A stretch of 64,000 nt of DNA from Tabrizicola piscis. GTDB lineage: Bacteria; Pseudomonadota; Alphaproteobacteria; Rhodobacterales; Rhodobacteraceae. Shown here one piece after another: positions 10,698 through 27,297 of the stretch. The stretch lies in the NCBI RefSeq assembly GCF_003940805.1, contig NZ_CP034328.1, positions 3,100,001 to 3,164,000 on the forward strand, written 5' to 3'. The stretch's first letter is position 1. Each line of letters starts with the position of its first letter. A program made the translations under genes and the position numbers. The notes under the pieces are model-generated. The model was not told the origin of the DNA, made no database searches, and saw nothing but the letters and a program-made list of their open reading frames with translations.

Positions 10698-11477
10698 ATG
10701 AACCAAAGAGCAAAAACTGTGGCGACCGAGATCGTCGAAGCTGTCCGCGACGTGCTGCGCCGGAACAAGGTGACCTTTGCAGAGTATCGTGCAGGCTTCA
10801 TGCACCTCGCAAAGACGCAGGCCGCCGGAGAGATCCCGCTGATGCTCGACCTGTTCTTCAACACGACCATCGTCCAGATCGAGAACGAGTCGCGCAAGGG
10901 TTCGAAGGCCGATATCCAGGGTCCCTACTTTGTGCCGAACGTCCCCTTCGTTGATCACGAGATCGCAATCGAGGAAGAGCACAAAGCGATGCCGCGTATG
11001 GTGATGCGTGGCAAGGTCGTGGACATGTCGGGCACGCCTGTGGCCGGTGCGGTGATCGACGTCTGGCATTCGACGCCGGATGGCCGCTATTCCGGGATCG
11101 AGCGTCACGGGAACCTCGACAAGAAATACTACCGCGGCAAGATCAAGACCGACAGCGAAGGTCGCTACGAAGTCCGCTCGATCATCCCGGTTCCCTATCA
11201 GGTCCCGAACAAGGGCCCGACCGGCCAGCTGCTGGAAGAATACATGGGTGTTCACTCCTGGCGTCCGGCCCACATCCACTACTGGGTGCAGGCAGAAGGT
11301 CTGCGTGACGTGATCCGCCAAGCGTATTTCGAAGGCGGCGACTACGTCCACGACGACTGCTGCGAAGGTGGTGGTGATGAGTTCATCGTTGCCGAGGCTT
11401 ATGAGGATGGTGTCCGGGTGATGGAAGTCGACTTCCAACTCGAGCCCGCCCAGACGCTTGTCCAAGCGGCAGAGTGA
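10698..11477 (+). CDS. Intradiol ring-cleavage dioxygenase (hydroxyquinol/catechol 1,2-dioxygenase-like)
   Basis: A 259-residue protein from the ATG at 10698, preceded by GGGAGGGAACT. Residues 1-80 are the helical N-terminal dimerisation domain of catechol-type dioxygenases, followed by IQGPYFVPNVPFVD. The catalytic beta-sandwich has VIDVWHSTPDGRYSG (first Tyr ligand), KKYYRGKIKTDSEGRY (second Tyr region) and RPAHIHYWV (the two His ligands), so non-haem Fe(III) binding looks intact. Such enzymes cleave catechol or hydroxyquinol between the hydroxyls. The maleylacetate reductase at 26236 points to hydroxyquinol, giving maleylacetate (inference). It is slightly shorter than typical hydroxyquinol dioxygenases. 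Confidence 0.88.
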   Translation: MNQRAKTVATEIVEAVRDVLRRNKVTFAEYRAGFMHLAKTQAAGEIPLMLDLFFNTTIVQIENESRKGSKADIQGPYFVPNVPFVDHEIAIEEEHKAMPRMVMRGKVVDMSGTPVAGAVIDVWHSTPDGRYSGIERHGNLDKKYYRGKIKTDSEGRYEVRSIIPVPYQVPNKGPTGQLLEEYMGVHSWRPAHIHYWVQAEGLRDVIRQAYFEGGDYVHDDCCEGGGDEFIVAEAYEDGVRVMEVDFQLEPAQTLVQAAE

Positions 11478-11486
11478 CATGGTTAG

Positions 11487-11512
11487 CTCTCGGGGCTGAT
11501 GCGCCCCGAGAG
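11487..11512 (+). terminator. 10-bp-stem hairpin after the dioxygenase
   Basis: CTCTCGGGGC (11487-11496) pairs perfectly with GCCCCGAGAG (11503-11512) across a 6-nt loop, 10 bp after the dioxygenase stop. No T-run follows, so it may be an mRNA-stabilising or attenuating hairpin before the Rieske gene rather than a full terminator. Confidence 0.5.
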
Positions 11513-11764
11513 ACCCTCGTTCTCAGCTCGGCACTGCGTAAGCGCCACGACCCGGGTTAATCCCCACCGACTGACTGTGTGTTGGTCGTCTCGTGGCTGC
11601 GCCTCCCCCAGAAGGTCAGCTTCAGACCACAGTGCCGGGCTGGGAACACTCTTTAGACCCCACCAAAGCCTCTTCTCCATATGGACATAAATGCTGCAGC
11701 CCAAGGGCTCGCACGGGTCCGTATGCGCCGACGAGAGAGCTAACACGCACGCAAAGGAAACGTC

Positions 11765-13147
11765 ATGTCTTTCGTCAAAGAAGCACTGGAGCCCGAAGAC
11801 AAGTTCGGCAGGGCTGTCCCGACGACATCGTACATTCGTCGGCTCCGTTACGACCTGAAGCACTATGCCTGGAGAAAGCTGGCCAACACCATTGCCATCA
11901 TTCCCGGGCTGAGTGGCCCCAAGAAAGCAATAAACAGCAAACCCGAACTGCGCGAGCTTTCCTCAGAAGCCAGCTTCATGGCGGATTGGTACAAGCGGCC
12001 CTACGGCACAGCAGACAAGCCGGAAAGCCTGCAGGAAGTTCCCTGGGACTACATCGAGGCATTTCAGGACGAGATCCCGTTCTGGGGCCTTCGGGAATAT
12101 TGGTACCCGGCGCTGATGTCGGATGAGTTGAAGCACAATGAATCCAAGGCGATCAAGCTGTTGGGTGACAACATCGTTCTGTTCCGCAATGGCGATGGTT
12201 CCCCGAATGCGCTTGAGAACCGCTGTCCGCATCGGGGGCCTCTGCTCTCGCTTGGACAGACGAACGTGTGGGAAGTGGGCACGATCACTTGCCGCTATCA
12301 CGGCATGACATTCGATGGAAAAGGCAACTGCGTTGCCTTCCTGGCTGACGGCGCGGACTCTCCAGCCTGCGCCAAGGTGAAGGCAAAGGCCTATCCGGCC
12401 GAAGAGGTCGGCGGGGTGATCTTCGTCTACATGGGGGTCAAGGAGCCGAAACCTTTCCTCGACTCGATGCCGCACGCGCGCGAGGTATTTGCGCCCGGTA
12501 CGCGCATCCGCAACACGATGACGGTGCCCTACAGCCACCTCAACCAGTTGGATAACACCGTCGACATGACGCATGTCGGCTGCCTGCATCGGACCTGCTA
12601 CCTGTTTGGCGATCAGAAGATGGGCGGCGGCGTCGCCTTTGAGCAACTGCCGGGCGACGGGATCTACGCCCATCTGCGCGACGTCGGCGATCATGGCGGG
12701 GAAAAGGCCATCGATGACATCCGCTGGTTCATGCCCAACCTCGTCCACCACGGCGAGGAGTTCATGGAGGGCAAGGTCAACGGACTGTATTTCTGGTTCG
12801 TCCCCGAAGATGTCGGCTCCTTCAAAGGTTGGTTGATCGGCTCGATCAACGACAAGAAGGCCGGTGTCATGGGCGCCAAGATGATCAAGACCGTCCTGAC
12901 GCGTGCGCTTCAATCTGATGCTCTGCCAGGCATGGCCTGTTTCGTCGGTGGTGATGCTCCCATGCAGATGTCTCAGGGCCGGGTCGTGCGCTGGGATCAG
13001 GAGCAACTGGCCAGGACAGACCGGGCGGTCGTGAAGGTCCGGCAGATGATGAAGGACGCCCACAAGGCGGAAATGAAACTCCGCGCCGAGATGGGGCTGG
13101 ATCCGCTTGTGCACCGGGCACCGAAACTGCGCGTCGCTCCGGCCTAA
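11765..13147 (+). CDS. Rieske non-haem iron aromatic oxygenase, alpha subunit
   Basis: A 460-residue oxygenase with AAAGGAAA before the ATG. The Rieske 2Fe-2S site is CPHRG (about residue 156) plus CRYHG about 20 residues later. The mononuclear iron site is in the segment NQLDNTVDMTHVGCLHR, which supplies the two His; a downstream Asp is expected from the family. The N-terminus is longer than in Rieske demethylases. No separate small beta subunit is present, suggesting an alpha-only enzyme. The reductase at 18053 is the likely electron donor. It probably does the first hydroxylation or demethylation of the cluster substrate; the substrate cannot be read from the sequence. Confidence 0.9.
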   Translation: MSFVKEALEPEDKFGRAVPTTSYIRRLRYDLKHYAWRKLANTIAIIPGLSGPKKAINSKPELRELSSEASFMADWYKRPYGTADKPESLQEVPWDYIEAFQDEIPFWGLREYWYPALMSDELKHNESKAIKLLGDNIVLFRNGDGSPNALENRCPHRGPLLSLGQTNVWEVGTITCRYHGMTFDGKGNCVAFLADGADSPACAKVKAKAYPAEEVGGVIFVYMGVKEPKPFLDSMPHAREVFAPGTRIRNTMTVPYSHLNQLDNTVDMTHVGCLHRTCYLFGDQKMGGGVAFEQLPGDGIYAHLRDVGDHGGEKAIDDIRWFMPNLVHHGEEFMEGKVNGLYFWFVPEDVGSFKGWLIGSINDKKAGVMGAKMIKTVLTRALQSDALPGMACFVGGDAPMQMSQGRVVRWDQEQLARTDRAVVKVRQMMKDAHKAEMKLRAEMGLDPLVHRAPKLRVAPA

Positions 13148-13264
13148 GCGCGGGCGCCTCGCCCGCGACTGCGTGGTGATGGCGGCATGAACGCCGGACG
13201 GGCCCCTATCGGGCCCGTCACAAGACCTGGACCGGGCAGGGTCACAAATCACAGGGAGGGGAAC

Positions 13265-14413
13265 GTGAACCACATCTTCAAGACCAAGTTGGCCTATGCG
13301 CTGACCACCGCTGTACTTGCAACCGGCGCACATGCCGAGGGTTTCGACCGGAACGTGCCGGACAACCTTTTCATGTTCGAACCGGGTGGCTACGTCGAGC
13401 TGGGGTCCGCGTTCCTGAGACCGGACATTACCGGCAGTTTCGCCACCCCAGGCGAAAGTATTCCGACCGGCAACATCTCGGACAACTTCGCCATTCCGCA
13501 ATTTGCGATCAAAACGGACATCAATGACCGTTTCTCGCTTGGCCTGCGCTACTCCCAACCCTATGGGCTGACGGCACAGTATCCTGACAATACGCCGCCC
13601 CTGTCCCCGCCATTTGCCCGAGGAACTGGGGGAGAGTTCGGTGCGAACGAACTGGCACTTTTCGGGCGCTACAAACTTAACGACCGCCACAGCGTCTTTG
13701 GGTCCCTACGGCTTCAGGAATATTCCGGCTATCTGCGGCGGGGCGGCGTTCAATTCGATTTCGAAAGCAGCTACGAGCTTGGGTATTCGCTTGGCTATGC
13801 CTTCGAAATCCCCGAGCAGCGGCTTTTGTTTTCGGCTGAATATCGGTCTGCCGTTGAACACTCCAACACTACCGTACCGCGCAACAGTGGCATTGCGGCA
13901 ATTGCAGACCCCACGTCACCACTTGGCATTACGCTTATCCCCGTCACCGCCGGTGAGGCTATGGCGCAGGACACAATCCACCGGACACCGCAGTCGTTGA
14001 CGCTGACCTTTCTGACCAAATTGCCGATCGGAGACGGCCGCAACCAGATGTTCGCCCGTTATCGTTGGGCAGAATGGTCCGAGGCGGACATCACGTTCAA
14101 CGGCTTGAACCCGACGCAATTCGTCAACAGCCAGATCTTCGGTCTGGGTTTCGGTCGCCTTGTGACGGACAACCTCGCAGTGACCGTTGTCGCAGAATAT
14201 CGCACAGGCGGCGAAAGCCCCAAACCCGGGCTTACCCCCTTCGAGGATTCCTACGGCCTTCTTTTCGGCATGCGGTACGCCCTGAACGACGACACTGTCC
14301 TGCAGGCTGGCTACAGCAAAATCTGGTTTGAGGACGCGACGACGGCAAACGGCGGGACCTTTGAAAACAACAGCGCGGACGGCGTCTTCCTGAAGATTGG
14401 CTACTACTTCTAA
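13265..14413 (+). CDS. FadL/OmpP1-type outer-membrane channel for hydrophobic substrates
   Basis: A 382-residue beta-barrel protein. The chosen start is the GTG at 13265 (VNHIFKTKLAYALTTAVLATGAHA), because the strong ribosome site GGGAGGGGAAC precedes it and a signal peptide begins there; an upstream ATG gives a non-family tail. The mature part has the FadL/TodX pattern: YVELGSAFLRPDITG, LGLRYSQPYG, repeated amphipathic strands (LSVFGSLRLQEYSGY, QMFARYRWAEWSEADI) and a terminal aromatic residue (FLKIGYYF). These porins take up hydrocarbons and aromatics. Placement directly after the Rieske gene suggests uptake of that pathway's substrate. Confidence 0.85.
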   Translation: MNHIFKTKLAYALTTAVLATGAHAEGFDRNVPDNLFMFEPGGYVELGSAFLRPDITGSFATPGESIPTGNISDNFAIPQFAIKTDINDRFSLGLRYSQPYGLTAQYPDNTPPLSPPFARGTGGEFGANELALFGRYKLNDRHSVFGSLRLQEYSGYLRRGGVQFDFESSYELGYSLGYAFEIPEQRLLFSAEYRSAVEHSNTTVPRNSGIAAIADPTSPLGITLIPVTAGEAMAQDTIHRTPQSLTLTFLTKLPIGDGRNQMFARYRWAEWSEADITFNGLNPTQFVNSQIFGLGFGRLVTDNLAVTVVAEYRTGGESPKPGLTPFEDSYGLLFGMRYALNDDTVLQAGYSKIWFEDATTANGGTFENNSADGVFLKIGYYF

Positions 14414-14466
14414 GCGTAGCGCAGCCCCTGTCTCAACAAAAGAGAAACAAGTGGAGAGGAGAAATC

Positions 14467-14826
14467 ATGAAAGTGCTCAGTAAGTTCATAGTTGGCCTGG
14501 GTGTGGCCATTGCCGCTGCTGCCAGTTCACCGGCCATCGCTGCACCGCTCACTGCAAGTGAGGTCGAGGAGGCCCTGATCGGGAAGACCATTCAGGGAAA
14601 GCGGATGGGAATGACCATCAAGATCAAGCTGGAAGGGAACGGCAGCGCTGCGATGGAGTCGACCATAATGGACGACACCGGAAACTGGCGGATGAACGGG
14701 CCGGAACTTTGCATGAAATGGCAAAGCTTCAACAACGGTGAGGAGCGCTGCTCGCTCATCACCCGGGAAAAGGATGGCTACCGTCTTGAGGGTGGCCCCT
14801 TGATGAAAGTGCTGCCTGACTCCTAA
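14467..14826 (+). CDS. Small periplasmic protein of unknown function
   Basis: 119 residues with a clear signal peptide (MKVLSKFIVGLGVAIAAAASSPAIA, cleavage before APL). The mature protein is a short beta-rich domain with two Cys (ELCMKWQ and EERCSLIT) that could form a disulfide. It looks like the small DUF995-type periplasmic proteins with a GKTIQG opening, but I cannot name a family with certainty. A strong ribosome site (GAGAGGAGAAATC) and 53-bp spacing place it in the operon with the outer-membrane channel. It may assist substrate handling in the periplasm (inference). Confidence 0.75.
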   Translation: MKVLSKFIVGLGVAIAAAASSPAIAAPLTASEVEEALIGKTIQGKRMGMTIKIKLEGNGSAAMESTIMDDTGNWRMNGPELCMKWQSFNNGEERCSLITREKDGYRLEGGPLMKVLPDS

Positions 14827-15016
14827 GCGCACAAGATCCGCTGGCGGCATATCCTCGTGCTTGGGCCGCGAGGATATGCCACCGCGTCAGCAAGCCAGAA
14901 ATCAATGCTGTGGCTTGATACCAAAACCGTATGGATGCGCAGACCAAACGGTACTTTTTCAGAACATGCATTGGTTTCAAGGTAAACCAAGCATCTTCCA
15001 TCCCGACGGAGCGGCT

Positions 15017-15322
15017 ATGCACTACGCGATCACGAACATTGACCATCCGGGCCGGAACTGGCTTCGGACAGATTTGCGGCCCAAGCATATCGAATACCTA
15101 AGGACGCCCCACGAAGGGGTGAAGCTGGTTCTGGCTGGCCCATTCATTAACGAGGATAATGGCGAGATGATTGGCTCTCTGCTGATCGTGTCCGCCGATG
15201 ATGTCGCCGCCGCCGAGCGGTTTCGGGACGGTGATCCCTTCGCATCCGGCGGATTGTTCCAATCCAGCGATGTGCGTCCTTGGAAGTGGGCTATCGGTGC
15301 CCCCGAAAGCTCAGAGGTTTGA
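15017..15322 (+). CDS. YciI-like protein
   Basis: 101 residues from the ATG at 15017, with GGAG upstream; an earlier in-frame start adds a tail unlike the family. The ferredoxin-like YciI fold is recognisable: MHYAITNIDHPGRNWLR, RPKHIEYLR, KLVLAGPFINEDNGEMIGSLLIV, AAAERFRDGDPFASGGLF. The conserved His and Asp (H at the start of HIEYL and D in RDGDPF) are present. Members include chlorohydroquinone- and muconolactone-processing enzymes and many of unknown role. In this cluster an isomerase or dehalogenase-like step on a ring-cleavage product is possible (inference). Confidence 0.8.
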   Translation: MHYAITNIDHPGRNWLRTDLRPKHIEYLRTPHEGVKLVLAGPFINEDNGEMIGSLLIVSADDVAAAERFRDGDPFASGGLFQSSDVRPWKWAIGAPESSEV

Positions 15323-15330
15323 GTGCCCGA

Positions 15331-16104
15331 ATGACTGATGAGGCAATAACAAAGCGCAGGACGTCCAGGACCGAATTGCGCGCCATCGCGGCGGAGGCGA
15401 TGCAAACGTTCGGGACCGACGCCCATGAACGCGCTTCGGTCCCGGCAGGAATCCGCTCCTGCATGGAAGAGCTGGAGCTGGGGATGATAAAGTCCCGCGA
15501 TCAACTTACCCTGCAGGAGCGGTTCATTGTCTGGCTAAGCGCGGCCTGCGTTCTGGGCCAAACGGAAAAGCTCGGCGTGCTTGCAAAAGGCGCGCAGGAC
15601 GCAGGGCTCACAAAGACCCAGATTTCGGAAGTCTTTCTGCAGTGCGTCCTCTACGCAGGTACCCCGAATGTGGAGCTTGCCTTCAAAGCTGCAAACTTGG
15701 GCCAGGTCGACAGCACTGGGACTGACTGTAGTGCGAATTTCGCAGACTTGTCGGCGACAATGCGCGCCAAACTGCACGGTGACTTGCAGAACAAGGGATA
15801 TTCAGACCCAAGCCGGAAGCATATGGCCGATCTTTATGAGATCGCAGCCTCTTATGGCTATGGGGTGATCTGGCGGCGTCCAGGTCTTGATCTGCGCCAC
15901 AGGCTTTTCTGCGCGATGGCGGCAATGGCAAGCCTGCCGGTCGCCTCAGCTTCCCTCAACAAGTTCGCGAGAACCGCCATAAGCCATGGTTTCACCTCGC
16001 CCGAGATTGTCGAGATTGTCATCCAGACCGCGCCCTTTTGCGGCTTCCCTGCCGCAATCGGCGCAATGAATACCGTCAGCGGCGCAGTCGCCGACCGAAA
16101 CTAA
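15331..16104 (+). CDS. Double carboxymuconolactone-decarboxylase-like domain protein
   Basis: 257 residues, starting 8 bp after the YciI-like gene. Two CMD/AhpD-fold repeats are visible: LTLQERFIVWLSAACVLGQTEKL, then QCVLYAGTPNVELAFKAAN in the first half, and LDLRHRLFCAMAAMASLPVAS, then TAPFCGFPAAIGAMN in the second. Neither half has the CxxC of AhpD, so a peroxidase role is unlikely. The GxPxA pattern is that of the gamma-carboxymuconolactone decarboxylase branch. It probably acts on a lactone or ring-cleavage intermediate; the exact reaction is unknown. Confidence 0.82.
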   Translation: MTDEAITKRRTSRTELRAIAAEAMQTFGTDAHERASVPAGIRSCMEELELGMIKSRDQLTLQERFIVWLSAACVLGQTEKLGVLAKGAQDAGLTKTQISEVFLQCVLYAGTPNVELAFKAANLGQVDSTGTDCSANFADLSATMRAKLHGDLQNKGYSDPSRKHMADLYEIAASYGYGVIWRRPGLDLRHRLFCAMAAMASLPVASASLNKFARTAISHGFTSPEIVEIVIQTAPFCGFPAAIGAMNTVSGAVADRN

Positions 16105-16115
16105 GGACGAAGACG

Positions 16116-16637
16116 ATGCCGACCACTTTGATACCCGGTCAACCGGTTCCATCCCTGACCTTCCCGCTGTTGGGCGGGCAAGTCTTTGACATCACGCAAA
16201 GCAAGCCGGGCTATCTGACGCTTGTGGAGGTGTACCGTGGCCTTCATTGCCCGCGATGCCACCGCCACATTCTGGGCTTGAACTCGGTCATGCCGCGCAT
16301 GGCCGAACGTGGTGTGAATGTCGTGGCCGTTTCGGCCGACCCGCAGGATCGCGCGCAAACCGCGAAAGACAAATGGGGGATCGACGCATTGCCATTGGGC
16401 TATGACCTTGACGAGGCAACAGCCCGAGCTTGGGGCCTGTTCATTTCGAACCCGATCACCCCGAATGAACCAAAGCCGTTCTATGAGCCGGGAACCTTTT
16501 TTGTAAGGCCTGACGGTGTCCTGTTCGCTGTCTCTCTTGGGTCAACCCCTTTCGGCCGCGCGCATTGGCCTGACTGGCTGGAAGGCCTGGATGCAGCCAA
16601 GGCACGCAACTATCCGCCCCGCGGCGACCGTGCCTGA
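16116..16637 (+). CDS. Peroxiredoxin-like (AhpC/TSA) redoxin
   Basis: 173 residues from the ATG at 16116 after AAGGACGAAGAC; the longer frame overlaps the previous gene. It has the thioredoxin fold, GQPVPSLTFPLLGGQVFDI, with the redox motif YRGLHCPRCHRH (CxxC, residues about 42-45), then VVAVSADPQD and a cis-Pro region PGTFFVRPDGVLF. It belongs to the peroxiredoxin-like group near AhpC/TSA. It sits two genes before a second thioredoxin-fold protein (17170-17862), which suggests a shared redox step or protection against by-products of the oxygenases (inference). Confidence 0.82.
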   Translation: MPTTLIPGQPVPSLTFPLLGGQVFDITQSKPGYLTLVEVYRGLHCPRCHRHILGLNSVMPRMAERGVNVVAVSADPQDRAQTAKDKWGIDALPLGYDLDEATARAWGLFISNPITPNEPKPFYEPGTFFVRPDGVLFAVSLGSTPFGRAHWPDWLEGLDAAKARNYPPRGDRA

Positions 16638-16666
16638 AACGGATCGTCAGGAAAGGTTTCCCGTCA

Positions 16667-17140
16667 ATGCAACAGCTGACGCCCAGTCTGATCACCGCGC
16701 TGTTTGGCTTTGCCATAGGGATCTTCCTTGTCTTGTCGCTGATCGAAAAGCCGGTCTGGAAACTCATGTGGCAGCCGCGCGCTGTCGATGTGCCCGACGG
16801 GATGGTCCGAACAATTCACTCGCAACTGAAGCGCGTGATCCACCTGTTGCCGCCGACAATGATCACCACGGTGATAAGCTTGATCTGTCTTCTGGTCCTG
16901 CAGGTCTTTCAGTCCGGCTTTGCCGCACTTGCGTTGGCCGTTCTGCTGATCTTTGCCGGTCAGCAGATCCTGATCATGCTTGCGTTGAAACAAGGCATTG
17001 AAGGCGTTGATCTTGTCGCTTCCGATGCAGGAATTGGCCGGGTGCGGGACGGTCTGGGTGCACTGGCACTGCTTCATCATCGCGGTCTGTTGAGCATGGC
17101 AAGCGGTCTTGCCGCACAGATGTGCTTTCTCGTCCTTTAG
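16667..17140 (+). CDS. Integral membrane protein of unknown function
   Basis: 157 residues with four hydrophobic segments: ALFGFAIGIFLVLSLI near the N-terminus, LPPTMITTVISLICLLVLQVF, FAALALAVLLIFAGQQILIML, and a C-terminal helix around LSMASGLAAQMCFLVL. A charged loop after the first helix carries EKPVWKLMWQP. AGGAAAGG precedes the ATG. No family is recognised. Spacing (29 bp on either side) shows it is part of the operon between the two thioredoxin-fold genes, so it may anchor or supply them at the membrane. Confidence 0.68.
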   Translation: MQQLTPSLITALFGFAIGIFLVLSLIEKPVWKLMWQPRAVDVPDGMVRTIHSQLKRVIHLLPPTMITTVISLICLLVLQVFQSGFAALALAVLLIFAGQQILIMLALKQGIEGVDLVASDAGIGRVRDGLGALALLHHRGLLSMASGLAAQMCFLVL

Positions 17141-17169
17141 GACTTCTACCTGAAACCAAGGATCATCAA

Positions 17170-17862
17170 ATGCGTGATACCGGCCTGAATCGAACCTACA
17201 ACTACAAACATTTCACGCCCGAGGAGTATGACTTTTCGGTGTTTCACGGCTTGAACGTCGGAGAGTCCTTCTTTGATGCAGACGTCTTCACATTCGACGG
17301 TGTGGCGCGGAAACTTTCGGACTACGTCGGCGGCAAGCCGTTGGTGCTTGAGATTGGCAGCATGACTTGCCCGATGTACGCGCGAAGCGCGCGTGAAATG
17401 AAGCCGATGCCAAGTCAGTACCCTGGACTGAACTTTGCGATTCTATACGTCCGTGAGGCCCACCCGGGTGAGCGCGTCGGTCAGCATGAAACCATCGAAG
17501 ACAAGATTGCGGCTGCCAAGATGTCCTGCACCAAACACGCGGAAGAGCGTCTGACCCTTGTCGACAATATCGATGGCACTGGCCACCAGGCCTACGGCTC
17601 CAAGCCCAACTCCATCTATGTCATCGGCACTGACGGCACGATCCTGTTCCGCAGCATCTGGAACAACGCGCCACAGATCGTGGACGTCCTTCAGGCCATT
17701 TCGGAAGAACAGAAACTGATAAAGCGCGAACTTGATGCGCGGCCTCCGTTCTCACTGCTGTCGGTCAGGACCCTCATGATGGGGGGCTGGGTCGCGTTTT
17801 TCGATTTTGTCACCGGCCTGCCGCGCCTGATCATGAGCCATCGGAAAGCGGGCAACATGTAA
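17170..17862 (+). CDS. Iodothyronine-deiodinase-like thioredoxin-fold protein
   Basis: 230 residues from the ATG at 17170 (MRDTGLNRTYNYKHFTPEEYDF). The core is the deiodinase/redoxin fold: LSDYVGGKPLVLEIGSMTCPMYARS, FAILYVREAHPGERV, KMSCTKHAEERLTLVDNIDGTGHQAYG and NSIYVIGTDGTILFRSIWNNAP. The position that is selenocysteine in animal deiodinases is Cys (codon TGC). Bacterial homologues often occur near aromatic or dehalogenating pathways, and their reaction is mostly untested. A C-terminal amphipathic/hydrophobic segment (LMMGGWVAFFDFVTGLP) may attach it to the membrane. Reductive dehalogenation or peroxide reduction are possible roles (inference). Confidence 0.8.
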   Translation: MRDTGLNRTYNYKHFTPEEYDFSVFHGLNVGESFFDADVFTFDGVARKLSDYVGGKPLVLEIGSMTCPMYARSAREMKPMPSQYPGLNFAILYVREAHPGERVGQHETIEDKIAAAKMSCTKHAEERLTLVDNIDGTGHQAYGSKPNSIYVIGTDGTILFRSIWNNAPQIVDVLQAISEEQKLIKRELDARPPFSLLSVRTLMMGGWVAFFDFVTGLPRLIMSHRKAGNM

Positions 17863-19021: not shown

Positions 19022-19055
19022 CGATCCCGCCGACTGTGCGGTGAACACGATGCAA

Positions 19056-19087: not shown

Positions 19088-19165
19088 CACCGCATCCACC
19101 TGCCGGGAACACCGCTGCCTCTGACGATCCGACCACAGGCGCTTGGATCGTCCGTAAGCGTGCCT

Positions 19166-20926: not shown

Positions 20927-21127
20927 GTCTTGTTCCTCCCTGACAGTCATATCAGATCGCCGCCCGAACATCCGACGGTCGACCTTTGGTCGTGGCGTTG
21001 TGTCTTGAGCAGTGGTGGCGGGACGAGGGTGCAGCGCAAACAGGCGGATCAATCAGACGTGGATGTCTTGCCCATGGCCGAAGCGCCAACGTTGGTTGGA
21101 ATGCACCGCGTCATCTAAGCCACGGAT

Positions 21128-21149
21128 GGATACCGGCTGCGCAGTATCC
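21128..21149. promoter_or_regulatory. GGATAC-N10-GTATCC inverted repeat upstream of the hydroxylase
   Basis: Perfect 6-bp arms (21128-21133 and 21144-21149) lie about 200 bp before the hydroxylase start, between it and the LysR gene. The half-sites match those of the ATAC-N7-GTAT boxes but with a wider spacer, so it is a variant or different site. Confidence 0.4.
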
Positions 21150-21231
21150 TGCGGGTCGCCGTCAAGCGCCTCTGCATAGCTCTCCTCCCAAAGATCGCAT
21201 CCTCGGGATAAAGGCTAGACGACGGCCGCCC

Positions 21232-22176
21232 TTACGCTCCAATACCTTTGAAACCGCCAGGCGATGCGCCTTCCGCATTGGCTGCCGCGGAAAGGGAAAC
21301 ACTTCTGAGAACTTTCAGGAATTCCTTGAGCACGGGGCGCTGATCGTCTTCCAGATAGATGCAGGAACTGGGTGCAAGCGTCCTGCAATCCTTGATCGGC
21401 ACACAGTTCAGGGCGGGAAACTGCAGTTTTGCAATGGCTTCAGGCACGATCGTGCACCGTGTCCCGCTGGCGACAAGGGCAAGCGCCGCCGTTGAATCTG
21501 TGGCAATGCTGTCCACTTCGAATTCGACCTTCGCGCCGCGGAACAGGCTTATGATCTCATCCGCAAAACTTGGGCGATCCCCTGCCGGAAAGAGGACGAC
21601 AGGCAAATGCGCCAGATCGGCAAGACGAACCTCGTCCTGCGTACCAAGAGCAAGGTCCGCCGGAATCGCCGCATAAAGCGGCTCGCGTGAGATCAGCTCA
21701 ATCGCAAGTCCGCTGGCCTGATTGTAGTAACGTCCGAACCCGATATGGATACGTCCATCGCGCAGGGCGTTGACCTGATCCGCCTTGCCCATGCGGGTCA
21801 GCGACACTTCGATCTGCGGCTGCGCCCGGTGAAAGGCGCGCAGCAAAAGCGGCACGGTCTGGTAGACGGTCGACCCAAAGAACGCGATATCAAGCCTGCC
21901 CAATTCCCCCCGCTCGGCGGCGCGGGTGCGGTCGACAGCGTTCTTTGCCTGCGACAGCACTTTCTGCGCGTCGGCGTAAAAGACGCGGCCCGCCTCGGTC
22001 AGGTCAACGCCTTTGGGCGTTCGGATGAACAGGGCTGCTCCAAGCTCATGCTCCAAGGCCTGGATCTGTCGGCTGATCGGCGGCTGCGATATGTTCAGGC
22101 GTTGCGCCGCGCGTCCGATGTTGCCCTCTTCGGCGACAGCGATGAAGTATTTCAACTGCCTGAATTCCAAATCCAT
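21232..22176 (-). CDS. LysR-type regulator, CatM/BenM/TfdR group
   Basis: 314 residues. The N-terminal winged helix MDLEFRQLKYFIAVAEEGNIG, then AAQRLNISQPPISRQIQALE and the following LGAALFIRT are those of the muconate/chloromuconate-responsive group (CatM, BenM, ClcR, TfdR). A periplasmic-binding-like effector domain follows (LDIAFFGSTVYQTVPLLLRAF, IHIGFGRYY, ALVASGTRCTIVPEAI). The effector is probably a ring-cleavage product or the phenol. Its start codon lies inside an ATAC-N7-GTAT box, consistent with autoregulation. The gene lies upstream of the hydroxylase on the same strand and probably controls several operons here. Confidence 0.92.
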   Translation of the reverse strand: MDLEFRQLKYFIAVAEEGNIGRAAQRLNISQPPISRQIQALEHELGAALFIRTPKGVDLTEAGRVFYADAQKVLSQAKNAVDRTRAAERGELGRLDIAFFGSTVYQTVPLLLRAFHRAQPQIEVSLTRMGKADQVNALRDGRIHIGFGRYYNQASGLAIELISREPLYAAIPADLALGTQDEVRLADLAHLPVVLFPAGDRPSFADEIISLFRGAKVEFEVDSIATDSTAALALVASGTRCTIVPEAIAKLQFPALNCVPIKDCRTLAPSSCIYLEDDQRPVLKEFLKVLRSVSLSAAANAEGASPGGFKGIGA

Positions 22177-22189
22177 ACCCCTTCGGTAT
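22175..22189. promoter_or_regulatory. ATAC-N7-GTAT LysR box at the regulator's own start
   Basis: ATAC (22175-22178), seven bases, GTAT (22186-22189). It fits the T-N11-A rule and exactly matches the published BenM/CatM consensus form. It overlaps the ATG of the LysR gene on the minus strand, so binding could repress its own expression. Confidence 0.6.
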
Positions 22190-22285
22190 CAGCAATGCCT
22201 GCAAGCCGCAGTCTACGGTAATGCGGCTGCCGCGGTAATCAAGGGGCCGGGTCGCGACCAGCAAGTGTCAAACGACAGGCGCGGC

Positions 22286-23218
22286 CTAGGCAAATGGCAT
22301 GTGGCGATCCCTTTGCATGACCGAACTGCGCAAGCAGTCGGCGAAGGCAATCATCTCGGGCGCGGGGGGATCGCTGCGTTGCATCAAGCCGATGGACCCG
22401 ATCGTGTCTGTTGTATCGACGGGCAGAAAAACCAACCGGCCTTCAGCCACTGCCGCCTCGGCCACCCCACGTGAGATGATCCAGATCGCGTCGGTTTCGC
22501 GCAGGATTGCCGTTGCGACGGCTTCGGCGGTGGTCTCGATCCGGTCATCGGGCAGACCAATTCCCCGGGCCGCTAGAAAGCGATCAACCACCGGGCGGAT
22601 CACGGCCTGCTCGGGCGGCATTATGACGGGGAAGCGGGACAGCGCGCTTGCAGGAAACTTGCCATGGCTCAGGGGATGCCCCACGCGGGCGACGAAGGCC
22701 AGACGATCCATGAACAGCGGGTCGAACCGCAGACCCGCCATGTGTTCAACCGCTGCCATCCGCCCCACGACACCGTCCAGATGCCCGCTGCGCAAGCGCG
22801 GAAGAAGCTGGTCGCCGGACCCCGTCTCGATCCTGATCAGCAGGTCGGGAACAGCAGCGCGAAGCTGCAGCACGGCTTGTGGCACAAGTGTAGCGGCAAC
22901 GGTCGGCAAAGCGCCGACGACCAGCGTCGGTCGCGCAGGCCCGCCGGCCCCGGCAATCAAATCAAGCCCGGTGCCAAGTTTCTGCAATGCCGCCTCTGCA
23001 TGGCGCAACAGCAGGCCCGCCGTGACGTTTGGCACCAGCCGACGCCCGGCCCGCGTGAACAGCTGCGTGGCCAGCAGGGTTTCCAGATCCGTAATTCTTC
23101 GGCTGGCAGCGGATTGGGTAATCCCCAAAGCCTCGGCCGCATCAGCGACGCTGTGCGTGTGATAGGTCTCAACGAAGCAGCGCAGATGCTTCAGCGTAAT
23201 TGATGCCAGCAAGTCCAT
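22286..23218 (-). CDS. LysR-type regulator, PcaQ/GbpR-like
   Basis: 310 residues. The helix-turn-helix region is LKHLRCFVETYHTHSVADAAEALGITQSAASRRITDLETLL, in the style of PcaQ/GbpR regulators, followed by an effector domain (TLVVGALPTVAATLVPQAVLQLRAAVPDLLIRIETG, GRMAAVEHMAGLRFDPLF). It is divergent from the 3-oxoadipate CoA-transferase genes, with about 90 bp between the starts, so control of the 3-oxoadipate branch is likely, perhaps in response to 3-oxoadipate or a related acid. A palindromic AAAATC-C-GATTTT lies in the shared promoter region. Confidence 0.9.
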   Translation of the reverse strand: MDLLASITLKHLRCFVETYHTHSVADAAEALGITQSAASRRITDLETLLATQLFTRAGRRLVPNVTAGLLLRHAEAALQKLGTGLDLIAGAGGPARPTLVVGALPTVAATLVPQAVLQLRAAVPDLLIRIETGSGDQLLPRLRSGHLDGVVGRMAAVEHMAGLRFDPLFMDRLAFVARVGHPLSHGKFPASALSRFPVIMPPEQAVIRPVVDRFLAARGIGLPDDRIETTAEAVATAILRETDAIWIISRGVAEAAVAEGRLVFLPVDTTDTIGSIGLMQRSDPPAPEMIAFADCLRSSVMQRDRHMPFA

Positions 23219-23233
23219 GATTTTTACTCATGC

Positions 23234-23246
23234 AAAATCCGATTTT
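23234..23246. promoter_or_regulatory. AAAATC-C-GATTTT palindrome between the second LysR and the CoA-transferase
   Basis: Perfect 6-bp arms around one base (23234-23246), in an AT-rich divergent promoter region of about 90 bp. It is the likely binding site of the adjacent LysR regulator. It differs from the ATAC-N7-GTAT form used near the other LysR gene. Confidence 0.45.
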
Positions 23247-23308
23247 CTCATTTTTATTTCACTTTCTTGCAAGATATCCAAGCGATGTCGCGGGGAGGTT
23301 CGGAAGAA

Positions 23309-24163
23309 ATGACCAAGTTCTGCAGCTTGAAGGATGCTATCGGCACGCATGTCCGTCCCGGCATGACCGTTGCATTCGAAGGGTTCACGCATCTGATCCC
23401 GCATGCCGCCGCGCATGAAACCATTCGTCAGGGGATCGGGGATCTGACCCTGATCCGCATGACCCCCGACGTGATCTATGACCAGATGATCGGCATGGGT
23501 CTGGTGCGCAAAGTCGTGTTTTCCTATGCGGGCAATCCGGGTGTCGGCCTGTTGCGCCGCCTGCGGGACGCGGTTGAAAACGCATGGCCGCGGCCGCTTG
23601 AGATTGAGGAACATTCCCACGCCGCCATGGCCAATGCCTATGAGGCAGGGGCCGCCGGTCTGCCGATGGCCGTGTTCCGCGGCTATCTGGGTGCCGGGCT
23701 CAAGGCTGTGAACCCCAACATCCGCAGTGTCACCTGCCCCTTCACGGGCGAGGAATTGGCCGCCGTCCCGGCCATCCGGCCGGATGTCAGCATCATCCAT
23801 GCGCAAAAGGCCGACAAGCAAGGCAATGTCCTGATCGAAGGGATCGTCGGCGTGCAGAAAGAGGCGGTCCTCAGCGCCCGGGCCGCCATCGTCACCGTCG
23901 AAGAGGTGGTCGAACGGCTGGACGCGCATCCCAATGCTTGCGTCCTGCCGCATTGGACGCTTGATGCCATCGTCGAAGTGCCGGGGGGCGCGCATCCCTC
24001 CTACGCCCATGGCTACTATGACCGCGACAATGCTGCCTATCTTGAATGGGACCAGATCGCAGCGGATCGCGATGCGTTCAAAGAATGGATGCAAAGGCAT
24101 GTTCTGGACGCTGACGAAGCCATTTTCGCAACCCGCGCGAACAGAATCGTAGGTGCAGCATGA
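23309..24163 (+). CDS. catI: 3-oxoadipate CoA-transferase subunit A (CatI/glutaconate CoA-transferase type)
   Basis: 284 residues from the ATG at 23309, with GGGGAGG and GGAAGAA upstream; an earlier in-frame start is less likely. It is the alpha subunit of the long CatI/GctA type rather than the short PcaI type: LKDAIGTHVRPGMTVAFEGFTHLIPHAAAHE, DLTLIRMTPDVIYDQMIG, VFSYAGNPGVGLLRRLRDAVEN and IIHAQKADKQGNVLIEG. It pairs with subunit B by an ATGA overlap. The pair moves CoA from succinyl-CoA to 3-oxoadipate. A different dicarboxylate is possible, but the adjacent thiolase and maleylacetate reductase support 3-oxoadipate. Confidence 0.87.
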   Translation: MTKFCSLKDAIGTHVRPGMTVAFEGFTHLIPHAAAHETIRQGIGDLTLIRMTPDVIYDQMIGMGLVRKVVFSYAGNPGVGLLRRLRDAVENAWPRPLEIEEHSHAAMANAYEAGAAGLPMAVFRGYLGAGLKAVNPNIRSVTCPFTGEELAAVPAIRPDVSIIHAQKADKQGNVLIEGIVGVQKEAVLSARAAIVTVEEVVERLDAHPNACVLPHWTLDAIVEVPGGAHPSYAHGYYDRDNAAYLEWDQIAADRDAFKEWMQRHVLDADEAIFATRANRIVGAA

Positions 24164-24939
24164 CCGGCTTTTCCCCAGATGAGATGATGACGGTTGCAGC
24201 GGCGCGCGCCCTGTCCAGTCGGGATGTCTGCTTTGTGGGCATCGGCGCGCCATCGGCGGCGTGCAATCTGGCACGGCTGACCCACGCCCCAGACATCACC
24301 CTGATCTACGAATCCGGCACCATCGGCACCGCGCCGCAGGTCCTGCCGCTTTCAATCGGCGACGGCGAACTATGCGACACGGCTGTGACGACTGTGCCGG
24401 TCCCGGAAATGTTCCGCTATTGGCTGCAGGGCGGTCGGATCACGGTGGGCTTCCTGGGGGCGGCCCAACTGGACCGGTTTGGAAACATCAACACCACCGT
24501 CGTAGGCGACTACAACGCGCCCAAGGTGCGTTTGCCAGGGGGCGGCGGCGCGCCCGAGATTGCGTCGTCCAGCCAGCAGATCTTCATCACGATGAAGCAG
24601 TCAAAGCGCAGCTTCGTGCCGAAGATTGATTTCTTCACCTCGTTTGGCCATGGAAACGGCGGCTCACATCGCCAAGACCTGGGGATCACGACGGCTGGCC
24701 CAAGCCTTTTGGTGACCGATATGGCGGTGTGGCGGCCGGACCCGGTGACCAAGGAATTCACCGTCATCTCGCTGCATCCCGGCGTCACACTGCAGGACAT
24801 GGCCGATACGGTTGGCTGGACCATCCGCTACAGCGACGCGATGACCGAAACCCCCGCACCCACCGCGGAAGAGCTTGAGGTGCTGCGCGCCCTGAAGGCC
24901 CGGACACAGGCCGCCCATAACCGTGAGGTAGCGTCATGA
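24160..24939 (+). CDS. catJ: 3-oxoadipate CoA-transferase subunit B (CatJ type)
   Basis: 259 residues, start overlapping the stop of subunit A. The catalytic Glu is in LIYESGTIGTAP (about residue 50), where CoA is covalently held. GGRITVGFLGAAQLDRFGNINTTVVGDYNAPKVRLPGGGGAPEIASSS is the conserved core (quoted in part: GGGGAPEIASSS). The C-terminal helix ends close to the thiolase start, again with an ATGA overlap, so the three genes are translated as one unit. Confidence 0.88.
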   Translation: MTGFSPDEMMTVAAARALSSRDVCFVGIGAPSAACNLARLTHAPDITLIYESGTIGTAPQVLPLSIGDGELCDTAVTTVPVPEMFRYWLQGGRITVGFLGAAQLDRFGNINTTVVGDYNAPKVRLPGGGGAPEIASSSQQIFITMKQSKRSFVPKIDFFTSFGHGNGGSHRQDLGITTAGPSLLVTDMAVWRPDPVTKEFTVISLHPGVTLQDMADTVGWTIRYSDAMTETPAPTAEELEVLRALKARTQAAHNREVAS

Positions 24940-26138
24940 TCGACGCGTTCATCTGTGACTACATCCGCACCCCGATTGGCCGCTTCGGGGGCACCTTGGC
25001 GGCTGTCCGGGCTGACGATCTGGGCGCGGTTCCCTTGCGGGCGCTGATGGCGCGCAACCCGGCGCTCGACTGGGCGGCGGTGGATGAGGTGATCTTCGGC
25101 TGCGCCAATCAGGCGGGCGAAGACAACCGAAATGTCGCGCGGATGTCGTCCTTGCTGGCGGGCCTACCAGAAAGCGTGCCGGGCACCACGATCAACCGGT
25201 TGTGCGGTTCAGGCATGGACGCCGTCATCATGGCCGCCCGTGCCATCCGTTCGGGTGAGGCGGATCTGGTGATTGCGGGCGGCGTCGAAAACATGAGCCG
25301 CGCGCCCTTCGTCCTTCCCAAGGCCGAATCCGCCTTTTCGCGCGCTGCCAGCATCGAGGACACGACGATTGGATGGCGCTTCATCAATCCGCTGATGAAG
25401 GCACAATACGGCGTCGATTCCATGCCCGAGACGGGCGAGAATGTCGCCGAGGATTTTGGCATATCCCGCGCCGATCAGGATCTCTTTGCCCTCCGCAGCC
25501 AGGAACGTGCGTCCCATGCCATCGCCTCGGGTCGGCTGGCGCAAGAGATCACACCGGTCACAATCCCCCAACGCAAGGGCGCGCCGCTTGTGTTCACGAC
25601 CGACGAACACCCGCGCCCTTCGACGCTGGAGTCGCTGGCAAACCTGCCGACGCCATTCCGCAAGGGCGGCTCGGTCACGGCAGGCAACGCGTCCGGCGTG
25701 AATGATGGGTCGGCGGCGATGATCGTCGCTTCGGCGGCGGCCGTCAAAGCACATGGCCTGATCCCAATGGCCCGGATCCTTGGCGGTGCCACCGCAGGCG
25801 TGCCCCCAAGGATCATGGGTATCGGGCCGGCCCCTGCCACACTCAAGCTTTGCGCTAGGCTGGGCATCTCTCCGACCGATTTCGATGTGATCGAACTGAA
25901 CGAAGCCTTCGCCTCGCAAGGAATTGCCGTGTTGCGGCAGTTGGGCCTGCCCGAGGATGCGCCGCATATCAACCCGAATGGGGGCGCCATCGCCCTGGGT
26001 CACCCGCTTGGGATGTCGGGGGCGCGGATCACGGGGACGGCAGCGTTGGAGCTGCAGCAGCGCGGTGGCAAGTTGGCGCTGGCGACCATGTGCATCGGGG
26101 TCGGTCAAGGCATAGCAATCGCGCTTGCGGCGGCCTGA
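24936..26138 (+). CDS. pcaF: 3-oxoadipyl-CoA thiolase
   Basis: 400 residues, the standard thiolase length. Nucleophile Cys in TTINRLCGSGMDAV (about residue 90); GGVENMSRAPFV; His in NPNGGAIALGHPLGMSGAR (about 356); second Cys in ATMCIGVGQGIA. The closing steps ELNEAFASQG and IGPAPATLKLC match PcaF/CatF/PaaJ enzymes. It cleaves 3-oxoadipyl-CoA to succinyl-CoA and acetyl-CoA, the last step of the route. A generic acetyl-CoA acetyltransferase cannot be excluded by sequence alone, but the gene order settles it well. Confidence 0.9.
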   Translation: MIDAFICDYIRTPIGRFGGTLAAVRADDLGAVPLRALMARNPALDWAAVDEVIFGCANQAGEDNRNVARMSSLLAGLPESVPGTTINRLCGSGMDAVIMAARAIRSGEADLVIAGGVENMSRAPFVLPKAESAFSRAASIEDTTIGWRFINPLMKAQYGVDSMPETGENVAEDFGISRADQDLFALRSQERASHAIASGRLAQEITPVTIPQRKGAPLVFTTDEHPRPSTLESLANLPTPFRKGGSVTAGNASGVNDGSAAMIVASAAAVKAHGLIPMARILGGATAGVPPRIMGIGPAPATLKLCARLGISPTDFDVIELNEAFASQGIAVLRQLGLPEDAPHINPNGGAIALGHPLGMSGARITGTAALELQQRGGKLALATMCIGVGQGIAIALAAA

Positions 26139-26143
26139 AGACG

Positions 26144-26158
26144 ATACCACTTTCGTAT
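26144..26158. promoter_or_regulatory. ATAC-N7-GTAT LysR box before maleylacetate reductase
   Basis: ATAC (26144-26147), seven bases, GTAT (26155-26158), five bases after the thiolase stop and 77 bp before the reductase start. It is identical in form to the box at the LysR start (22175-22189). An extra GTAT half-site follows at 26165-26168. Confidence 0.6.
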
Positions 26159-26235
26159 GATCCAGTATGCCAAACGATATTGGACGCTCCCCTGCCCAAG
26201 CGGCACGGTGCGCGCGTAAAGGGCAGGACAAACTT

Positions 26236-27297
26236 ATGGACAGCTTCATCTATACCAGCCTTCCCGCGCGCGTGGTGTTCGGCGTGGGCACCACAGCATC
26301 CTTGCCGCAGGAGGTCCATGCCCTTGGGATCACCAAGGCCCTCGTCCTTGCGACGCCGCAGCAAGTCAGCGAAGCACAGGCGCTGGCGGACCTTTTGGGT
26401 GATGCTGCTGCGGGTATCTTCGCCGAAGCGGAAATGCACACGCCCGTGGACGTGACCGAACGCGCCCTCGCTGCCTTTGCAGCCCTGGGCGCTGATGGCA
26501 TCGTTTCGATCGGCGGCGGCTCTACCGTAGGTCTGGGCAAGGCCATCGCGCTGCGCACCGATGCGCCTCAGGTGGTCTTGCCGACATCCTACGCCGGTTC
26601 GGAAATGACCCCACTGCTGGGGCAGACCGAAGGGGGCAAGAAGACAACGCTGCGCTCGCTCAAGGTGCTGCCCGAAACGGTGATCTATGACGTGAACTAC
26701 ACGTTGACCCTGCCACCGCGGATGACGGTCACCAGCGGCATGAATGCCATCGCCCATGCCGTCGAAACGCTTTACGCGCAGGAAGCCAATCCCGTGCTGT
26801 CGCTGATGGCCGAGGACGGGATTGCCAAGATGACCCGCGCGCTGGACCGCGTTCTGGTCGCCCCTTCGGATATCGCGGCACGCTCGGACGCGCTTTACGG
26901 GGCCTGGCTCTGCGCGGTTTGCCTTGGGGCAGGCGGCGTGGCACTGCATCACAAGCTGTGCCACGTTCTGGGTGGGTCGTTCAATCTCCCCCATGCCGAG
27001 ACGCATACCATCATCCTGCCCCATGCGCTTGCCTACAATGCTCCGGAAATTCCGCAAGCCATGGCAGCGATGCGCCGTGCGACCGGGGCGGAAAAGCCTG
27101 CGAAAGCCTTGTTCCGCATCGCCCAATCCGCCGGCGTGCCGACGGCACTGAAGGATCTGGGCATGCCGCAGGACGGCATCGCGCGCGCTGTGGAAATCAC
27201 GTTGGAGAACCCGTATTTCAACCCGCGTGCCTTTGAACGCGACGCGCTTTTGCAACTGTTGGAGAACGCCTGGCATGGGAACGAACCCGATGCCTGA
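26236..27297 (+). CDS. Maleylacetate reductase
   Basis: 353 residues from the ATG at 26236; the longer frame runs through the operator. It is an iron-type alcohol-dehydrogenase fold protein of the maleylacetate reductase group: FIYTSLPARVVFGVGTTASLPQEV, VSIGGGSTVGLGKAIAL (NAD(P)H site), PTSYAGSEMTPLLGQTEGGKKTT, SGMNAIAHAVETLYAQEANP and HHKLCHVLGGSFNLPHAETH. The His residues of the metal/substrate site are present. It reduces maleylacetate to 3-oxoadipate and links ring cleavage of hydroxyquinol or chlorocatechol to the CoA-transferase and thiolase. It is the key diagnostic gene of the cluster. Confidence 0.93.
   Translation: MDSFIYTSLPARVVFGVGTTASLPQEVHALGITKALVLATPQQVSEAQALADLLGDAAAGIFAEAEMHTPVDVTERALAAFAALGADGIVSIGGGSTVGLGKAIALRTDAPQVVLPTSYAGSEMTPLLGQTEGGKKTTLRSLKVLPETVIYDVNYTLTLPPRMTVTSGMNAIAHAVETLYAQEANPVLSLMAEDGIAKMTRALDRVLVAPSDIAARSDALYGAWLCAVCLGAGGVALHHKLCHVLGGSFNLPHAETHTIILPHALAYNAPEIPQAMAAMRRATGAEKPAKALFRIAQSAGVPTALKDLGMPQDGIARAVEITLENPYFNPRAFERDALLQLLENAWHGNEPDA

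Follow-up and report, generated by a model that had tools for sequence, protein, structure and literature searches.

A possible halocatechol ortho-cleavage island with an alpha-only Rieske oxygenase and exchanged middle enzymes in Tabrizicola piscis

The 64,000-nucleotide stretch of Tabrizicola piscis DNA analysed here (the window) holds an aromatic-degradation block that appears to have been acquired by this marine-type bacterium. We regard it as evenly balanced whether this island encodes a modified ortho-cleavage pathway for halocatechols, with an alpha-only Rieske oxygenase (RIE) as its upper step and a double carboxymuconolactone-decarboxylase-fold protein (CMD2) and a metallo-beta-lactamase-fold hydrolase (MBL) in its middle (Table 1). 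In the proposed route, a FadL-type channel would admit a hydrophobic aromatic, RIE and its reductase would yield a catechol and/or a phenol by hydroxylation, ether cleavage or methyl removal, and a flavin hydroxylase (FMO) would hydroxylate the phenol in the ortho position. The intradiol dioxygenase (IDO) would convert the catechol to a (halo)muconate, to be lactonised by CMD2, which would replace the customary cycloisomerase; MBL, standing in for the customary dienelactone hydrolase (DLH), would turn the dienelactone into maleylacetate, and maleylacetate reductase (MAR), a CoA-transferase and PcaF would lead on to acetyl-CoA and succinyl-CoA. Chlorocatechol degradation is a textbook example of how pathways evolve on synthetic compounds; if true, a chromosomally encoded form in which two steps are exchanged would represent another natural way to handle halogenated aromatics, provide two new enzyme assignments testable on known substrates, and give a small, rare Rieske family its first function.

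Table 1. Features of the putative island and its flanks (window positions)
Feature	Position	Strand	Basis
ychF, left flank	7841-8992	-	neighbour of block
Whole acquired block	9003..27710	.	ychF-trpA juxtaposition in relatives L139-L143
MBL, metallo-beta-lactamase-fold hydrolase, proposed dienelactone hydrolase	9263..10162	+	PF00753
IDO, chlorocatechol-type intradiol dioxygenase	10698..11477	+	PDB relatives, identity, tree
RIE, alpha-only Rieske oxygenase, proposed upper-pathway enzyme	11765..13147	+	PF00355
FadL/TodX-type outer-membrane channel	13187..14413	+	PF03349; 61% in Litoreibacter
Small protein, signal-like N terminus	14467..14826	+	no Pfam match; 48-51% in Litoreibacter
YciI-like protein, 101 aa, candidate dehalogenase	15017..15322	+	PF03795; start set by inspection
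CMD2, double CMD-fold protein, proposed cycloisomerase substitute	15331..16104	+	PF02627 twice
AhpC/TSA-type redoxin with CPRC	16116..16637	+	PF00578
Small membrane protein	16667..17140	+	translation; no Pfam match
Deiodinase-like thioredoxin-fold protein, candidate reductive dehalogenase or peroxidase	17170..17862	+	PF00837
Reductase (FAD, NAD and plant-type 2Fe-2S domains), RIE partner	18053..19021	+	PF00970, PF00175, PF00111
FMO, HbpA/TfdB-type flavin phenol hydroxylase, 586 aa	19166..20926	-	bit scores (see text)
LysR1, LysR regulator	21232..22176	-	BenM/CatM and AlsR among best models, all below cut-offs
LysR2, PcaQ-like LysR regulator	22286..23218	-	TIGR02424 287.8 bits, just under cut-off 303.8
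CoA-transferase subunits A and B, glutaconate-CoA-transferase type	23309..24939	+	PF01144
PcaF, 3-oxoadipyl-CoA thiolase	24936..26138	+	TIGR02430 673 bits, cut-off 597
MAR, maleylacetate reductase	26236..27297	+	392 bits to solved maleylacetate reductases
trpA, right flank	start about 27764	+	neighbour of block

The 18.7 kb block (window ~9003-27710) lies between ychF and trpA, and its borders are set by sequence comparison with relatives in which these two genes adjoin: four same-genus genomes (L139-L142) and a Litoreibacter (L143) have them together with the block absent, and the alignments of L140 and L142 skip from window 9010 to 27705. The block has a GC content of 60.2%, against 62.7% on its upstream side and 65.0% on its downstream side. 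The original prediction had delimited the region as 10698..27297; position 10698 is likely the true dioxygenase start, but the unit is larger and also holds the MBL gene. All genes then listed were recovered at the positions given, using Pfam, NCBIfam, PDB or translation. The analysis likewise supports the predicted breakdown of aromatics whose final stages are maleylacetate, 3-oxoadipate and acetyl-/succinyl-CoA, the Rieske upper step without assignment and the possibly halogenated substrate, and the same gene order was not found characterised for a known substrate.

The 'hydroxyquinol-type' label attached to the region was not supported. The best solved relative of IDO is a chlorocatechol 1,2-dioxygenase (246 bits), versus 73-94 bits for enzymes named hydroxyquinol or chlorohydroxyquinol dioxygenase, and these scores, together with the HbpA/TfdB-like hydroxylase, speak against a hydroxyquinol-type lower pathway. 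IDO is 46-52% identical to the plasmid-borne chlorocatechol dioxygenases found in sphingomonads and on pJP4, clusters with chlorocatechol dioxygenases in the tree, and has 69% orthologues in Litoreibacter and genome G416 that adjoin chloromuconate-cycloisomerase-like genes. As with FMO, MAR and PcaF, its enzyme type is assigned from sequence, here as chlorocatechol-type; because of this type and the neighbours of its orthologues, its product is more likely muconate than maleylacetate. The block pairs a chlorocatechol-type intradiol dioxygenase with MAR, and encodes neither an MLE-family cycloisomerase (MLE) nor a PF01738 DLH. Because MLE is missing, we class the route, which works like chlorocatechol modified ortho-cleavage, as a variant only.

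These same absences would fit a hydroxyquinol pathway, in which IDO would turn hydroxyquinol directly into maleylacetate, so that cycloisomerase and DLH would not be needed, and the YciI-like protein would act like TftG, its best solved relative, on a halohydroxyquinol. MAR is present as such a pathway demands, though it is common to the chlorocatechol pathway, and a genome search at E<=1e-25 gave no MLE. We nevertheless consider this reading improbable: by sequence comparison the dioxygenase is not of the hydroxyquinol type, its close orthologues adjoin MLE, and MBL is kept in all six loci of its clade although a hydroxyquinol route would not need it.

For the halocatechol route, the middle enzymes were compared across 13 related IDO loci. 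MBL occurs in six and DLH in six others, never both, while CMD2 occurs in four (the window, L108, L109 and L110) and MLE in exactly the other nine, never both and never neither. With kinship ignored, Fisher tests gave 0.0047 for the MBL/DLH and 0.0014 for the CMD2/MLE alternation. In the IDO tree the MBL loci form one clade (100/97), inside which one CMD2 locus pairs with one MLE locus (89/86), and therefore at least two changes of state took place; within this clade, of six loci only, two of them from one genome, the Fisher value was 0.067. The metal-site motifs of MBL (HxHxDH, H, D and H) are kept in 6/6 orthologues and, given this intact site and the strict gene exchange, MBL likely opens dienelactone. 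The Rhizorhabdus locus (L005) has no DLH and no MBL orthologue, and only a distant MBL-fold protein (28%).

That CMD2 replaces the cycloisomerase is a speculative proposal drawn from the gene exchange alone. CMD2 was found in 3/374 family genomes (E<=1e-20), all three among the 4/394 that hold IDO, and its L108 counterpart is divergent (31-36%). The protein belongs to the CMD fold (PF02627) and scores 81.3 bits as PcaC, below the NCBIfam cut-off of 155.7; the His of a solved archaeal CMD, which we take to be catalytic, aligns with Phe in its second domain, and we know of no precedent for lactonisation by this fold. Among 11 genomes searched, that of the window was the only one with no MLE match at E<=1e-25. 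It does hold five weak MLE-superfamily matches (best 25% identity) and two PF01738 matches outside the block, one of them strong, with a canonical DLH about 430 kb away; against the island model, these might serve, as could the MLE-like genes (37-39%) on other contigs of G112 and G116 in those genomes.

There is an appreciable chance, if somewhat short of even, that the route is a halocatechol one in which CMD2 acts as a dehalogenase, a lactone decarboxylase/isomerase or an AhpC-like redox partner, with lactonisation spontaneous or performed by a distant MLE-superfamily enzyme such as the weak matches above. The CMD2 and redoxin genes are neighbours in the window, L108 and L110 (L111 and L113 carry more distant redoxins), a Mycolicibacterium plasmid has a CMD gene next to one for a deiodinase-like protein, and one report describes the CMD homologue Bmp8 as debrominating (PMC7918430). 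However, L109 has CMD2 and no redoxin on its stretch, CxxC is absent from 6/7 CMD2 rows, including that of the window, and a redox or dehalogenase function leaves the CMD2/MLE alternation unexplained. The boldest combination, in which roseobacters would use CMD2 as an unrecognised, non-homologous chloromuconate cycloisomerase, MBL as a new dienelactone hydrolase and an uncharacterised Rieske family to open natural halogenated phenols or aryl ethers, is put forward tentatively, as rather less probable still.

RIE keeps CxH...CxxH, H270, H275 and D397 in alignment A1, and its predicted model (pLDDT 88.3) has the alpha-only Rieske oxygenase fold of CARDO-type angular dioxygenases. RIE was found in 2/394 genomes, both with IDO. 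Of the 12 genomes from which the named RIE loci come, 9 contain an IDO relative at E<=1e-20 (8/12 at E<=1e-40), the one in Kordiimonas being of the catechol-dioxygenase kind, and three contain none. Relatives of RIE are repeatedly found alongside chlorocatechol-type genes. One such case is a symbiont of a PBDE-producing sponge; the symbiont's chlorocatechol pathway has been published (PMC7313196), and Rieske does not come up in the main text of that paper. The reductase is 65% identical in Litoreibacter and 42-44% in four further RIE genomes. RIE probably feeds the halocatechol route. The substrate most likely belongs to the halogenated phenols or diaryl ethers, halogenation being suggested by the kinds of enzyme present and by a small number of habitats.

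A narrower reading, in which a halogenated diaryl ether (e.g. a PBDE bearing hydroxyl or methoxyl groups) is split into a catechol and a phenol through angular dioxygenation by RIE, with FMO salvaging the phenol half, seems unlikely. The RIE model resembles CARDO, but the scores of guaiacol O-demethylase (28.4) and phthalate dioxygenase (28.1) come close behind; isophthalate and phthalate dioxygenases (100.8, 83 and 79 bits) outrank CARDO (77.5 bits) in sequence; and at E<=0.001 RIE matches only PF00355, with no match to the CARDO catalytic domain PF11723. In the same reading the YciI- and deiodinase-like proteins would strip the halogens, but the deiodinase-like gene is unmatched in the other loci, and YciI relatives occur only in Litoreibacter, plus a distant one in Rhizorhabdus.

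The companion genes, previously grouped as one unexplained set, split into Rieske-linked, dioxygenase-linked and unmatched members. The FadL, secreted-type and YciI genes also follow the RIE gene in Litoreibacter, CMD2 and the redoxin belong with dioxygenase clusters, and neither the membrane protein nor the deiodinase-like protein had a match in the 17 other stretches compared. The YciI-like protein has a YCII domain and two PDB matches, the nearer being the 5-chlorohydroxyhydroquinone dehydrochlorinase TftG, of the same length and weakly similar (33.7 bits), with which the His of KHIEYL and the Asp of DPF, presumably the dyad residues, align. A His-Asp dyad has been reported (PMC7641849). 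Aligned to Dio3, the deiodinase-like protein keeps TCP, EAHP and QH..ED, with Cys at the Sec place and a motif that we infer to map to Dio3 His202; because it scores 60 bits against the NCBIfam deiodinase_rel cut-off of 250, it may be a distant fold-family member at most.

FMO matches the 2-hydroxybiphenyl 3-monooxygenase HbpA over its full length (667 bits) and 2,4-dichlorophenol 6-monooxygenase at 492 bits; HbpA feeds an extradiol route, whereas the ring-cleaving enzyme here is intradiol. Relatives of LysR1 adjoin IDO in most loci. CoA-transferase subunit B is nearest to glutaconate CoA-transferase, and we propose the pair as a 3-oxoadipate CoA-transferase.

The tfd cluster of pJP4 (Cupriavidus pinatubonensis JMP134), ordered cycloisomerase, dioxygenase, DLH, MAR and flavin hydroxylase, resembles the block in IDO (46%), MAR, a TfdB-type hydroxylase and LysR control, but has cycloisomerase and DLH where the window has CMD2 and MBL; RIE with its reductase, the CoA-transferase and the thiolase are additional in the window. 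The Litoreibacter roseus cluster (L004/L114) shares MAR, PcaF, CoA-transferase, LysR2, MBL, LysR1, IDO, FMO, RIE, FadL, the small protein, YciI and the reductase; it differs in having two MLE genes instead of CMD2, an AraC regulator before the reductase and no redoxin, membrane or deiodinase-like gene, and it lies elsewhere in a genome where ychF and trpA stand together. A related chlorocatechol cluster has been predicted in print for one relative, Hyphomonadaceae SP12AHP1, as a 3,5-dichlorocatechol pathway (PMC7313196); it has MLE and DLH and neither MBL nor CMD2, but is alike in IDO (44-45%) and MAR (63%) and carries, on the same stretch, RIE at 67% and a reductase at 42% identity to the window.

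Hydroxyquinol-type catabolism, the reading of the block given in the original prediction, is disfavoured by the type of its intradiol dioxygenase (IDO) and is probably wrong. The best solved relative of IDO was a chlorocatechol 1,2-dioxygenase (246 bits, PDB comparison), followed by other chlorocatechol enzymes (169–180 bits) and the best catechol dioxygenases (175–176 bits), whereas enzymes named as hydroxyquinol or chlorohydroxyquinol dioxygenases reached 73–94 bits and PnpC 102 bits. Sphingomonad plasmid enzymes share about 50% identity with IDO, and a pJP4 enzyme shares 46%. For the flavin hydroxylase (FMO), HbpA ranks first (667 bits) and 2,4-dichlorophenol 6-monooxygenase second (492 bits); a glutaconate-type CoA-transferase, maleylacetate reductase (MAR) and 3-oxoadipyl-CoA thiolase (PcaF) complete the lower-pathway gene set. 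Judged by sequence, IDO, FMO, MAR, PcaF and the CoA-transferase make up the predicted frame of a tfd-type route, for which the gene order on pJP4 is cycloisomerase, dioxygenase, dienelactone hydrolase, maleylacetate reductase and flavin hydroxylase. A halocatechol-type route is the likely pathway of the block, with the disfavoured hydroxyquinol pathway kept as its rival.

The block holds neither a cycloisomerase (MLE) nor a dienelactone hydrolase (DLH). A Litoreibacter MLE used as query gave five matches at E ≤ 0.001 in the window's genome, the best of them 25% identical, and with a second Litoreibacter MLE this genome alone among 11 lacked a match at E ≤ 1e-25. Its DLH matches lie outside the block, one strong about 430 kb away and one weak elsewhere. 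Across 13 IDO loci, two middle-pathway genes are exchanged exactly, a more interesting fact than the reading first proposed. MLE and DLH occur together in Henriciella pelagia, Henriciella sp., the hyphomonad SP12AHP1, Halieaceae and two Acidimicrobiia; MLE accompanies a metallo-beta-lactamase-fold protein (MBL) in Litoreibacter and genome G416; a double carboxymuconolactone-decarboxylase-fold protein (CMD2) accompanies MBL in the window, at two loci of genome G116 and at one of G112; and the Rhizorhabdus locus has MLE with neither DLH nor MBL. None of the 13 loci holds both MBL and DLH (Fisher 0.0047), and every one has exactly one of CMD2 and MLE (Fisher 0.0014), both values being uncorrected for kinship; inside the six MBL loci only, CMD2 versus MLE gives 0.067. 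Loci L112 and L113 are one genome, as are L008 and L116, and a single genome contributes the two loci L108 and L109. The count leaves out L115, whose IDO (30%) falls with the catechol-dioxygenase outgroup, the stretches L007 and L009, which carry no IDO, and two reference plasmids. Absences at L013 carry little weight because this stretch has only 5,977 bases; L108 reaches the end of its contig, and its CMD2, missing from the ORF list, was detected by tblastn. The nearby MLEs are 33–52% identical to pJP4 TfdDII, or to one another at the low end, and have the KxK, D, E, D and K positions in common. In the IDO tree, which has modest support at several inner forks, the six MBL loci form one clade (100/97), within which the CMD2 locus L108 groups with the MLE locus L118 (89/86), while another CMD2 locus, L110, branches at the base; this topology requires a minimum of two changes of state.

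MBL and CMD2 are the candidate replacement proteins (REPLACEMENTS). The HxHxDH, H, D and H motifs of MBL, the pattern of metal-dependent lactonases, are kept in all six orthologues, and on balance we favour MBL as a dienelactone hydrolase. The trans-dienelactone hydrolase of P. reinekei MT1 was rejected as a precedent: this zinc-dependent enzyme is placed with cyclase-like proteins in PF04199 (PMC4108320, PMC5341072), and therefore in a family other than that of MBL. CMD2 has two CMD domains and 37 invariant positions across seven sequences, including Leu148-His149, Arg189, Arg191 and Lys211-Phe212. In domain 2 a Phe aligned to the His of a solved archaeal CMD protein, and CMD2 scored 81 bits against the PcaC model (cut-off 155.7); its best fold matches were CMD proteins (predicted model of middling confidence, pLDDT 65.8). 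CMD2 is therefore probably no standard decarboxylase. An AhpD-like role was rejected, as CxxC is missing in six of the seven rows. We put CMD2 forward, tentatively, as a candidate lactonising cycloisomerase. Among the main texts searched, no paper was found on these replacements or on a Rieske gene in such a cluster.

Within the family, the alpha-only Rieske oxygenase (RIE, E ≤ 1e-60) was found in 2 of 394 genomes, IDO (E ≤ 1e-40) in 4 of 394 and CMD2 (E ≤ 1e-20) in 3 of 374 (the window's own, G112 and G116), all three with IDO; the Fisher test of CMD2 versus IDO pools these two draws (374 and 394 genomes) as one. Genome G026 has a weak partial CMD2 match only (8.3e-13). IDO occurred in 1/385 class genomes (the window's own), 3/390 order genomes and 1/19 in the genus of G416. 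A protein search gave six CMD2 relatives, the window's own included; for three of the other five, the longest contig is the same size as that of an IDO match (548,243, 37,407 and 3,650,170 bases), and the 37,407-base size recurs for a RIE relative at 81%, a pairing by agreement of sizes alone. Plasmid carriage was rejected, as the plasmid matches to RIE, MBL and CMD2 were distant, all under 60% identity (best among the 20 listed for each: about 30%, 38% and 27%, respectively), and no RIE relative was found in viral contigs. At the acidimicrobial locus L011, two related Rieske genes adjoin (7067 and 10001), with an IDO relative and MLE near.

Hints to the substrate come from the companion genes. 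The best solved relative of YciI is TftG (33.7 bits), a dehydrochlorinase. The deiodinase-like protein has Cys at the Sec place of Dio3 and keeps the EAHP and QH..ED motifs; redoxin relatives are present at L108, L110, L111 and L113. PBDEs, according to PMC7144113, have a diphenyl ether core in common with thyroid hormones and can inhibit deiodinases. In Henriciella pelagia, RIE is flanked by a sulfatase gene and, on the opposite side, a sulfatase-maturation-type gene, and in Halieaceae a sulfatase lies about 3 kb from RIE (L006, 8312–13361; L010, 5154–7040); with such genes nearby, the natural substrates may be sulfated phenols. Taken as a whole, the hints prove nothing, though they are compatible with marine phenols or diaryl ethers that are halogenated and perhaps sulfated; a halogenated diaryl ether specifically is an unlikely substrate. 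Sterol use by RIE was rejected (4beta-methylsterol monooxygenase NCBIfam, 73 bits versus a cut-off of 600; unsupported by PDB or fold matches). Pairing of CMD and deiodinase is also found outside the halocatechol pathway: on a Mycolicibacterium vanbaalenii plasmid (L150, 7330–9300), a CMD-family gene and a deiodinase-like gene overlap, and a glutaredoxin-domain gene comes next. In neither of two plasmid records of deiodinase-like neighbourhoods was an intradiol dioxygenase annotated in the stretch.

All genes named in the original prediction were confirmed within the window; the prediction omitted the first gene, the MBL-fold hydrolase at 9263, which opens the unit. For several genes the true start falls downstream of the one given by the mechanical ORF call.

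Gene starts in the block (window positions)
Gene	Start	Remark
YciI	15017	101 aa, same size as TftG
CMD2	15331	revised start
Redoxin	16116	revised start
Deiodinase-like protein	17170	revised start
Flavin hydroxylase (FMO)	20926	586 aa, same size as HbpA

The unit is one acquired block. The ychF search covered five same-genus genomes; in the four compared (L139–L142), as in Litoreibacter (L143), no more than about 1.2 kb separates trpA from ychF. Aligned to the window, L140 and L142 end on the left at 9010 and restart on the right at 27705, and the 13 bases common to both ends form, by inspection, an imperfect repeat (8998–9010 and 27705–27717, 11/13 identical). Different, shorter DNA occupies the same ychF–trpA point in L139 and L141, so that insertions seem to favour this point, which is likely a hotspot. 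GC content is 60.2% in the block and 62.7% and 65.0% in its flanks. Among the block's genes there was no sign of a transposase or integrase, and neither promoter-like sites (2 versus 5.1 expected from shuffling) nor terminator-like sites (12 versus 16.8) exceeded expectation. About 2 kb outside the block lies a tRNA-Ser gene (anticodon gct, 7016–7103); at 4728–6724 an AraC regulator with a DJ-1/PfpI domain is divergent to an alpha/beta hydrolase, and downstream of the block, at 31531–33324, a second MBL-fold gene adjoins a creatininase-family gene.
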